Shown: piece after piece, positions 63,747 to 64,000 of the stretch
How positions within the stretch are numbered: position 1 is the first letter of the stretch
Layout: each line of letters begins with the position of its first letter
Assembly (NCBI RefSeq): GCF_013373065.1
Contig: NZ_JABXIN010000015.1
Span: forward strand, 62,001 to 126,000
Reading direction: 5' to 3'
Length of the DNA stretch: 64,000 bases
Source: Algoriphagus sp.
GTDB lineage: Bacteria; Bacteroidota; Bacteroidia; Cytophagales; Cyclobacteriaceae
The notes under the pieces: generated by a model
The model's database searches: none
What the model saw: only the letters and a program-made list of their open reading frames with translations
Told to the model about the DNA's origin: nothing
Program-made: the position numbers and the translations under genes

Positions 63747-63879
63747 AAGCCTCTTTATTAAGAAGCTTTATTGGTGGAGGATAACGGAGTCGAACCGATG
63801 ACCTTCCCGACAAACGTCGGGACGCTCTGACCTTCTTATAGCTATCGAGATGAGCTAATTCAGATTGTATTAAATAAAA
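63747..63879 (-). repeat. tRNA-derived tandem repeat, copy 1 (133 bases)
   Basis: One unit of a tandem array. It holds a hairpin (AAGCCTCTTTATTAAGAAGCTT) that on the minus strand is followed by a T-rich stretch, then a tRNA-like segment. The next unit begins 133 bases on with the same hairpin (AAGTCTCTCTATTGAGAAGCTT). It is 26 bases longer than copy 2 because it still keeps a recognisable anticodon-arm region. Confidence 0.75.
63772..63858 (-). pseudogene. Decayed tRNA copy 1 (3' half intact, 5' acceptor strand lost)
   Basis: On the minus strand this reads TTAGCTCA (D-arm start), then GGTCAGAGCGTCCCGACG..., a T-arm GGTCATCGGTTCGACTCC and 3' acceptor GTTATCCTCCACCA with encoded CCA. The 5' acceptor strand expected to pair (GGAGGAT) is replaced by unrelated bases, and the anticodon arm is a strict palindrome (CCCGAC GTTT GTCGGG) without a seven-base loop. 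A normal tRNA cannot form. The parent gene may lie to the right of the window; its amino acid identity is not certain (Val-type is possible from the GGAGGAT/ATCCTCC acceptor). Confidence 0.6.
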
Positions 63880-63986
63880 AAGTCTCTCTATTGAGAAGCT
63901 TTAATGGTGGAGGATAACGGAGTCGAACCGATGACCTTCCCGATAGCTATCGGGATGAGCTAATATCAGATGGTATTAAATAAAAA
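63880..63986 (-). repeat. tRNA-derived tandem repeat, copy 2 (107 bases)
   Basis: The second unit of the array, sharing the leading hairpin, T-arm and acceptor segment with copy 1. The tail ATCAGATGGTATTAAAT corresponds to TTCAGATTGTATTAAAT there. A third unit begins at 63987 (AAGCCTCTCTATTG) and runs off the window. Confidence 0.75.
63905..63963 (-). pseudogene. Decayed tRNA copy 2 with anticodon arm replaced by a palindrome
   Basis: It carries the same T-arm and CCA-ending acceptor 3' strand as copy 1, but between the D-arm start (TTAGCTCA) and the T-arm only CCCGATAGCTATCGGG (63939-63954), a perfect 16-base palindrome, remains. The 5' acceptor strand is absent. It is not a functional tRNA. 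Confidence 0.6.
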
Positions 63987-64000
63987 AAGCCTCTCTATTG

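Follow-up and report, generated by a model that had tools for sequence, protein, structure and literature searches.

The window analysed here, the whole stretch of 64,000 nucleotides from an Algoriphagus sp. contig, ends on its right side in two degenerate tRNA-Ala units on the minus strand, a proximal one at 63967-63875 and a distal one at 63861-63747. Extension of the sequence to the right, which had been proposed as the way to find the parent tRNA, located an intact tRNA-Ala(GGC) gene next door, preceded by recR. The features of this region are as follows.

64012-64088 (window-equivalent numbering, outside the window): intact tRNA-Ala(GGC), its 3' end 12 bp past the window edge
63982-64000, minus strand: end of the terminator of the intact tRNA-Ala(GGC), initially taken for a partial third unit
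63956-63967, minus strand: proximal unit, D-arm remnant GATATTAGCTCA
63938-63955, minus strand: proximal unit, perfect palindrome TCCCGATAGCTATCGGGA at the anticodon-arm position
63905-63937, minus strand: proximal unit, copy of tRNA-Ala from position 45 to CCA
about 63875-63901, minus strand: proximal unit, terminator-like hairpin and T tract
63851-63861, minus strand: distal unit, D-arm remnant GAATTAGCTCA
63834-63850, minus strand: distal unit, second, decayed palindrome TCTCGATAGCTATAAGA at the D-arm position
63823-63833, minus strand: distal unit, D-arm-like remnant AGGTCAGAGCG
63805-63822, minus strand: distal unit, palindrome TCCCGACGTTTGTCGGGA at the anticodon-arm position
63772-63804, minus strand: distal unit, copy of tRNA-Ala from position 45 to CCA
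about 63747-63768, minus strand: distal unit, terminator-like hairpin

In both units a TCCCG-N8-CGGGA palindrome takes the place of the anticodon arm, and in the distal unit TCCCGACGTTTGTCGGGA with its flanks matches the strict signature AGCG-TCCCGN8CGGGA-AGGTC. By eye, the 33-nt 3' parts of the two units do not differ from one another or from the intact tRNA; the alignment spans 31 of the 33 positions. The initial annotation had described tandem minus-strand tRNA 3' ends with palindromes and terminator-like hairpins, in at least three units spaced by 133 and 107 bp. The repeats are real and both spacings hold, 133 bp from unit to unit and 107 bp between the proximal unit and the intact tRNA; the supposed third unit is the terminator of the intact gene, which leaves two degenerate units. 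A progressive replacement of the anticodon arm, also suggested there, is not what the units display, as the palindrome substitutes outright with no stepwise wear. No complete functional tRNA was found in these bases: ARAGORN predicted no tRNA over the window, and Rfam, run on the window units (L003, E up to 0.1), matched the intact tRNA alone. By eye, the sequence TATATTTG, which we take to be promoter-like, lies upstream of the intact tRNA only and not of the units.

With up to two mismatches, CCCGATAGCTATCGGG had a single occurrence in the window and was absent from all 100 shuffles. The strand of the 254-nt region folds 3.07 SD below its shuffles, and one shuffle in 200 folds as well. A looser pattern, CCCGAN6TCGGG with one mismatch, was found twice in the window against 1.21 expected, which is not significant, and we therefore relied on the stricter match and on comparative data. 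The window array is a real relic, and its own content is modest. Tandem repeats that lie downstream of a tRNA gene and contain its 3' end, as in the window array, occur at tyrT/rtT of E. coli; to our knowledge, those repeats have neither a palindromic substitution of the anticodon arm nor a GIY-YIG gene.

A search for the same array in related genomes, which the initial annotation had proposed, covered 58 genomes including the window's own and found matches in 46, many of them at tRNA-Ala and several with a GIY-YIG gene. At the same locus in several genus-mates, the order is tRNA, terminator, small GIY-YIG nuclease gene, palindrome and tRNA 3' part, so that the nuclease gene fills the gap between the intact tRNA and the palindrome copy. 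By eye, the nuclease frame begins soon after the tRNA terminator, and at several loci it runs into the D arm of the broken copy and takes its stop codon from there. The tRNA-Ala locus of G021 contains three cassettes in tandem, with one nuclease frame broken by a stop. In G029 the lipoprotein gene downstream is, by eye, the one also present in the window genome, yet a cassette is there. Presence and absence at one conserved site are seen among the relatives. Among 33 tRNA-Ala loci of the genus, a nuclease lies within 700 bp downstream in 15, upstream in one (G022) and in neither place in 17, and hence 16 of the 33 carry one. In the 18 loci without a downstream nuclease, which include the window genome and G022, the palindrome motif was present in nine, no more than 700 bp 3' or 160 bp 5' of the tRNA. 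The G022 locus (L130, G022:C24; reverse strand, 1510-1900) holds a mirrored cassette: a tRNA-Ala 5' part, a long palindrome, the nuclease and a complete tRNA-Ala; the stop codon of the nuclease overlaps, or is supplied by, the opening bases of that tRNA.

The window's own genome also contains GIY-YIG cassettes, at tRNA-Asp (joined by inference across two contig ends), tRNA-Met and tRNA-Val, and on contig C4 a GIY-YIG cassette adjoins copies of a tRNA 3' end. The window contig has no GIY-YIG cassette and the window locus no nuclease remnant; for this reason the origin of the array there is inferred from its relatives.

To describe the nuclease across the genus, we used 119 unique small GIY-YIG domains from 35 genomes, among the matches listed; this set leaves out open frames of at least 230 aa (UvrC and others), lacks four listed small-frame places (G033, G029, G018 and G017), and includes some loci that entered through the tRNA-Ala array search. 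Among these matches, 64 of the 119 domains lay within 250 bp downstream of a same-strand tRNA predicted by ARAGORN, 48 of them at 36-61 bp, and no domain had a tRNA on the opposite strand inside 250 bp; for 4 of the 64 the predicted "tRNA" is itself a palindrome-armed copy. A further 18 lay at 250-950 bp, in arrays, 35 had no upstream tRNA and 2 were at edges. G022 was the sole one of these 35 with a tRNA start between -60 and +400 of the domain end. For about 45 tRNA genes in 4.5 Mb, roughly one placement in 800 is expected by chance.

In the genus tree the tRNA-linked nucleases group by isotype, the labels needing 15 changes where 13 is the least possible and shuffles average 68.2, although this tree, like that of the named loci below, has few columns and many open forks. 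The Val, Lys, Leu(UAA), Asp and Ala clades have 96-99% SH-aLRT support, the Asp clade including the edge row of the window's own genome and the Ala clade including rows labelled by palindrome-armed copies that ARAGORN had called. Support is lower or absent for the Leu(CAA), Arg, Thr and Pro clades, and two changes are required for Met. Rows without an upstream tRNA (34 of 107) fall mostly in separate clades. The association of nuclease lineages with particular isotypes is plain from these data.

The GIY-YIG genes at the homologous loci (there is none in the window) match Pfam PF01541 above its cut-off. The conserved Tyr, Tyr-x-Gly, Arg and Glu columns of the GIY-YIG active site are kept in 71, 71, 73, 72 and 72 of 73 linked rows, and 11 alignment columns, catalytic ones included, are kept in more than 85% of these rows. 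The median dN/dS was 0.18 and the maximum 0.42, from the 31 of 199 pairs that were usable, the other 168 being saturated; purifying selection acts on the tRNA-linked nuclease. Open frames shorter than 70 aa, due to stops, frameshifts or contig ends, were found for 10 of the 119 domains. The nearest solved chains are UPF0213 proteins and the structure-specific nuclease subunit SLX1. NCBIfam, applied to four proteins, gave weak matches to group I intron endonucleases in two, far under the cut-off. Plasmids gave no match to the Ala-linked protein at E 1e-5, and phage matches to the Ala-linked query came from ten Rhizobium phage records at 38% identity.

Relatives beyond the genus were collected by a protein-pattern scan of GTDB species genomes, of which the best 80 of 450 were kept; these come from Bacteroidota, Neomarinimicrobiota, Calditrichota, Cloacimonadota, Ignavibacteriales and a few unplaced records. 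A same-strand tRNA lay within 250 bp upstream at 59 of these 80 named loci, a count to be read knowing that the query was built from tRNA-linked nucleases, that a few loci have less than 100 bp of upstream sequence, and that the ARAGORN "tRNA" at L216 and L278 is a palindrome-armed copy. No opposite-strand tRNA was seen within 600 bp at any of the best 80 of 450. In the tree of these named loci (again the best 80 of 450), isotype requires 11 changes and taxonomic class 22. A further count, 15 + 7 of 57, is biased, with 20 regions chosen partly as tandem and L175 belonging to the same genus.

Of 395 genomes of the phylum, 8 had the strict signature, one of them being that of the window; a reversed-pattern control gave none. 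A tRNA-Ala or tRNA-Val is present in the fetched stretch for seven of the eight, and the eighth is near a contig end. A nuclease was found within the fetched locus in two of the eight and none was seen in the other six, so that nuclease-less scars like that of the window are common; such scars may persist or spread on their own.

We then compared the sequences that flank the nuclease. A piece of the locus's own tRNA isotype lies 3' of the nuclease at 50 of 59 genus loci and 51 of 58 named loci (from the best 80 of 450), and it beats all ten other-isotype controls at 48 genus and 43 named loci; 2 of 61 genus and 1 of 59 named records drop out of this scoring with downstream stretches that are too short, and one per set out of the motif count that follows. 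CCCG..CGGG occurs within 110 nt after the nuclease at 27 of 60 genus loci and 47 of 58 named loci, against shuffle expectations of 0.59 and 0.50, and after 1 of 33 GIY genes without an upstream tRNA. Upstream, the motif is present at 19 of 60 genus and 26 of 58 named loci. The retained 3' part starts at tRNA position 44-45 in 31 of the 46 scored loci among 59, the 13 further loci having no scorable 3' part, and at these position-44/45 loci the anticodon arm is cleanly replaced. The commonest junction is therefore the anticodon arm, at tRNA position 44/45. Other palindromes or positions are found for Leu, Thr, Arg and part of Met; in Leu(UAA), a CCTGCCTG..CAGACAGG palindrome sits in the T arm.

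The palindromes had been selected by their outer five pairs, and for this reason the inner pairs alone count as evidence of covariation. Stem pairs 6-13 and 7-12 were standard in all 32 distinct 18-nt palindromes, where shuffles reached at most 27 and 23; the variable pairs include several compensatory types, and the next pair is standard in 18 of 32. Some palindromes lie away from tRNAs. In the window's own genome TCCCGAWNNNNWTCGGGA occurs at 9 places (control, 0), two of them in tRNA cassettes and four of the others, when viewed, without a tRNA, and exact CCCGATAGCTATCGGG occurs at 2 places.

These junctions bear on one origin offered initially, namely that serial integration at a tRNA 3' end left att-like scars. 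Insertion scars in a tRNA gene come close to the picture in related genomes; the likely agent, however, is a small GIY-YIG nuclease cassette and not a phage-type integrase acting at the 3' end. tRNA genes are classic integration sites, and a duplicated 3' end with CCA is the scar that a tyrosine recombinase of a phage or ICE would be expected to leave. However, the search for an integrase beside the array found no tyrosine or serine recombinase by Pfam in eight neighbouring genes, two of which match no family at all, the commonest junction falls at the anticodon arm, and relatives carry a GIY-YIG gene at the site. We regard phage or ICE integration as very improbable.

If an element had entered a resident tRNA gene, the gene should be split around it. 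Many loci do have, immediately 5' of the intact tRNA, a broken copy whose 5' end is preserved and which carries a palindrome. Should this piece and the one downstream derive from a single resident gene, agreement between their acceptor strands would be expected. Four loci (L229, L133, L041 and L245) have two halves that each depart from the intact tRNA. At L229, in Algoriphagus locisalis, the intact tRNA has A5-T68, and the halves have G5 and C68. At L133, the tRNA-Lys of G017, the intact pair is T7-A66 and the halves have G7 and C66, where the C66 half belongs to the final one of two cassettes in tandem. L041 (G033) has the same pair as L229, its downstream half bearing a further change and being more decayed. 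All 7 acceptor pairs form between the halves at L229, L133 and L041, and 5 of 7 at L245, which has a deletion. If G-T wobble counts (G5-T68), the upstream half at L229 and L041 also forms all 7 pairs with the 3' strand of the intact tRNA; the downstream C68, in turn, is unable to pair with A5 of the intact tRNA. The remaining loci have the same allele throughout (most loci with both halves), a difference on one side, or decayed or mismatched pieces.

The alleles can also be traced among species. The halves in A. locisalis match the tRNA-Ala of A. winogradskyi (RecR 94%, last 150 aa), and its intact tRNA equals, by eye, that of the more distant G009 (RecR 86%); G017, the nearest to A. locisalis by RecR (94.7%), has a third tRNA-Ala allele. 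The two clean split loci (L229 and L133) and the weaker one (L041) are the strongest sign that a complete foreign tRNA together with its nuclease may have been inserted into a resident gene. The terminators give a mixed picture: the left one looks imported and the right one ancestral in G010 (by score), G014 and G033 (by eye), G034 has the opposite, and at many loci the right copies are equal, missing or misassigned. Several automatic right picks were unrelated sequence, and the resulting count of 7 in 26 was not used; G014, G033 and G034 were judged by eye.

The initial annotation had alternatively proposed a tRNA transcription unit that was duplicated and then decayed, to which one may add that the palindromes arrived later as dispersed repeats and the GIY-YIG genes are passengers. 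The tRNA 3' end and terminator do repeat in tandem, left and right terminators are equal in G021 and G004, acceptor alleles equal those of the intact tRNA at most loci with two halves, and in five genomes TCCCGAW..WTCGGGA palindromes occupy 9 to 16 places each, some of them away from tRNAs. Simple duplication and decay are nevertheless insufficient, since they leave unexplained a palindrome with covarying stems at one tRNA position in several phyla and a compensated pair that is common to the halves and absent from the intact tRNA at three loci; the sorting of the nuclease clades by isotype also speaks against them. We consider this origin unlikely.

An explanation at the RNA level, which we hold to be improbable to a similar degree, takes the anticodon arm of the cognate tRNA as the target of the GIY-YIG protein, the palindrome-armed mimics as decoy or antitoxin RNAs, and arrays without a GIY-YIG gene as protective leftovers. 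It would fit the isotype specificity of the nuclease clades, the tandem mimic arrays beside Lys and Asp tRNAs and the frequency of GIY-less arrays. With Rfam, the palindrome-armed copies in G021 and L233 reach tRNA scores of 27.6-31.7 bits, around the cut-off of 29, and an Slx1-like domain has been described as fused to a tRNA-methyltransferase homologue (PMC1564403). In contrast, most downstream copies have no 5' acceptor strand and the nuclease frame often enters the D arm, so that a full mimic cannot form from those copies. The Leu(UAA) palindrome lies in the T arm, and the nearest solved relatives of the protein are the UPF0213 proteins and the SLX1 subunit named above.

Taken together, these findings suggest that the units in the window are probably remnants, now lacking the nuclease, of a mobile element that inserts itself into tRNA genes. 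In its fullest form the putative element would consist of a palindrome, a short tRNA fragment with spacer, a complete tRNA gene, a terminator, the GIY-YIG gene, a D-arm fragment and a second palindrome, the order in which these parts lie at the loci described. It would sit inside a resident tRNA gene, most often at the anticodon arm, with the resident 5' half remaining upstream and the resident 3' half and terminator downstream, and the tRNA carried by the element would serve the cell. The mirrored form, in which a resident 5' half precedes the nuclease and a complete tRNA follows it, occurs at least once (G022). We infer that the resident tRNA gene is cut by the nuclease, at the anticodon arm or close to it, and that repair of the break from an element-bearing copy would copy the cassette in. 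Recombination among the tRNA copies may then produce tandem arrays or remove the nuclease gene, and loss of that gene would leave scars of palindrome and 3' tRNA as in the window. One observation does not follow from such homing. No protective allele was found in the intact tRNA of invaded genomes, where the commonest anticodon-arm alleles were equally frequent with and without a downstream nuclease (11/11 and 4/4). Simple homing therefore fails to explain how the carried tRNA escapes cutting, and the resistance could be located elsewhere than in the anticodon arm.

In its general form we hold this proposal tentatively, at slightly less than an even chance: there may be a class of integrase-free elements in which a lone Slx1-like GIY-YIG nuclease, in a cassette bounded by hairpins, recognises the anticodon-arm (or T-arm) hairpin of one tRNA gene, swaps that hairpin for TCCCG..CGGGA, splits the gene and supplies a full replacement tRNA. 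Such elements would form isotype-specific lineages in Bacteroidota and related phyla and leave arrays like that of the window.

Several known systems resemble parts of this arrangement. As described in the available parts of two reports, SegB, a GIY-YIG endonuclease of T-even phages, cuts within tRNA genes, and tRNA-Tyr and segB amplify together in tandem in a SegB-dependent manner (PMC13096335, PMC2988022). The cassettes here are like SegB and other free-standing homing endonucleases of T-even phages in placing a GIY-YIG gene beside tRNA genes; SegB differs in being phage-borne, and those parts of the reports describe no palindrome and no resident tRNA that is split and replaced (PMC13096335, PMC2988022). 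The co-localisation of SegB with tRNAs, as given there, favours no isotype (PMC13096335, PMC2988022), unlike the isotype-specific clades found here. In the mORFs of fungal mitochondria, according to the portion of the account at hand, an endonuclease cassette enters a conserved gene with a replacement 3' part and leaves the native 3' part downstream, and one of four mORFs in Glomus sp., that in atp9, is of GIY-YIG type (PMC3630166). The likeness is that a cassette inside a conserved gene supplies a replacement part; mORFs differ in lying in organellar protein genes, and that portion describes neither a tRNA target nor a palindrome (PMC3630166). The prokaryotic Slx1-like stand-alone nucleases share the minimal GIY-YIG domain without other domains, and differ in that the accessible text on them mentions no linkage to tRNA genes (PMC1564403).

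Among titles and abstract openings of the open-access literature, we found no account of tRNA-linked GIY-YIG cassettes with palindromes in bacterial chromosomes. The family apparently is an undescribed one of isotype-specific, tRNA-invading GIY-YIG elements, a variant of free-standing homing elements. If this is true, it explains the arrays of tRNA fragments and palindromes beside tRNA genes in such bacteria, and many small GIY-YIG genes gain a role. It would offer a way for a nuclease element to inhabit an essential tRNA gene without splicing, by bringing a working replacement, and a natural source of tRNA gene replacement and amplification. It also raises a testable question, whether a minimal Slx1-like nuclease can drive site-specific mobility through recognition of a DNA hairpin.

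Some loci showed further arrangements. Upstream of an intact tRNA-Lys, G009 (L137, about 820-1400) has five tandem palindrome-armed tRNA-Lys copies about 112 bp apart, together with a second array, with a longer inserted palindrome, downstream of a nuclease; G059 (L156 and L161) likewise has tandem palindrome-armed tRNA-Lys copies upstream of its intact tRNA-Lys. At L178 (G143:C12, reverse strand, about 121-1434), an array just upstream of a GIY-YIG gene contains six tRNA-Asp predicted by ARAGORN and three more genes that have this tRNA body but GCC (Gly) as anticodon, with palindrome-armed copies interspersed. If charged with Asp, the GCC copies could misread Gly codons. At tRNA-Arg(CCT) in L146 (G061) and L149 (G023), a copy that looks nearly complete, apart from a long palindrome, GCCCGCCCGGCTGACGCCAGTCGGACGGG, in its D loop, follows the GIY-YIG gene, and the anticodon arm of the copy equals, by eye, the intact tRNA of the other genome. 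Rfam, applied to six loci, reported tRNA only, plus a sub-threshold Plastid-ycf2 match opposite a tRNA.

Palindromes were also seen in other settings. At L035 (G000:C25, 1150-1600), TCCCGATAGNTATCGGGA palindromes stand in another repeated context (..TTGGTTCTTTTGGG..) where no tRNA was predicted. At L157 (G021) and L165 (G000:C8), about 1501-1518, the palindrome apparently lies inside coding sequence (by eye), at L157 within a start resembling a signal peptide (by eye). Viral contigs gave two matches to the strict signature, L307 and L308. L307 looks like a chance match in GC-rich sequence. L308 (IMGVR_UViG_3300031707_006572, a GC-rich viral contig; 1-800) holds three palindrome-armed tRNA-Pro copies and a GIY-YIG gene with an intact tRNA-Pro directly 3' of it, in a cassette-like arrangement.
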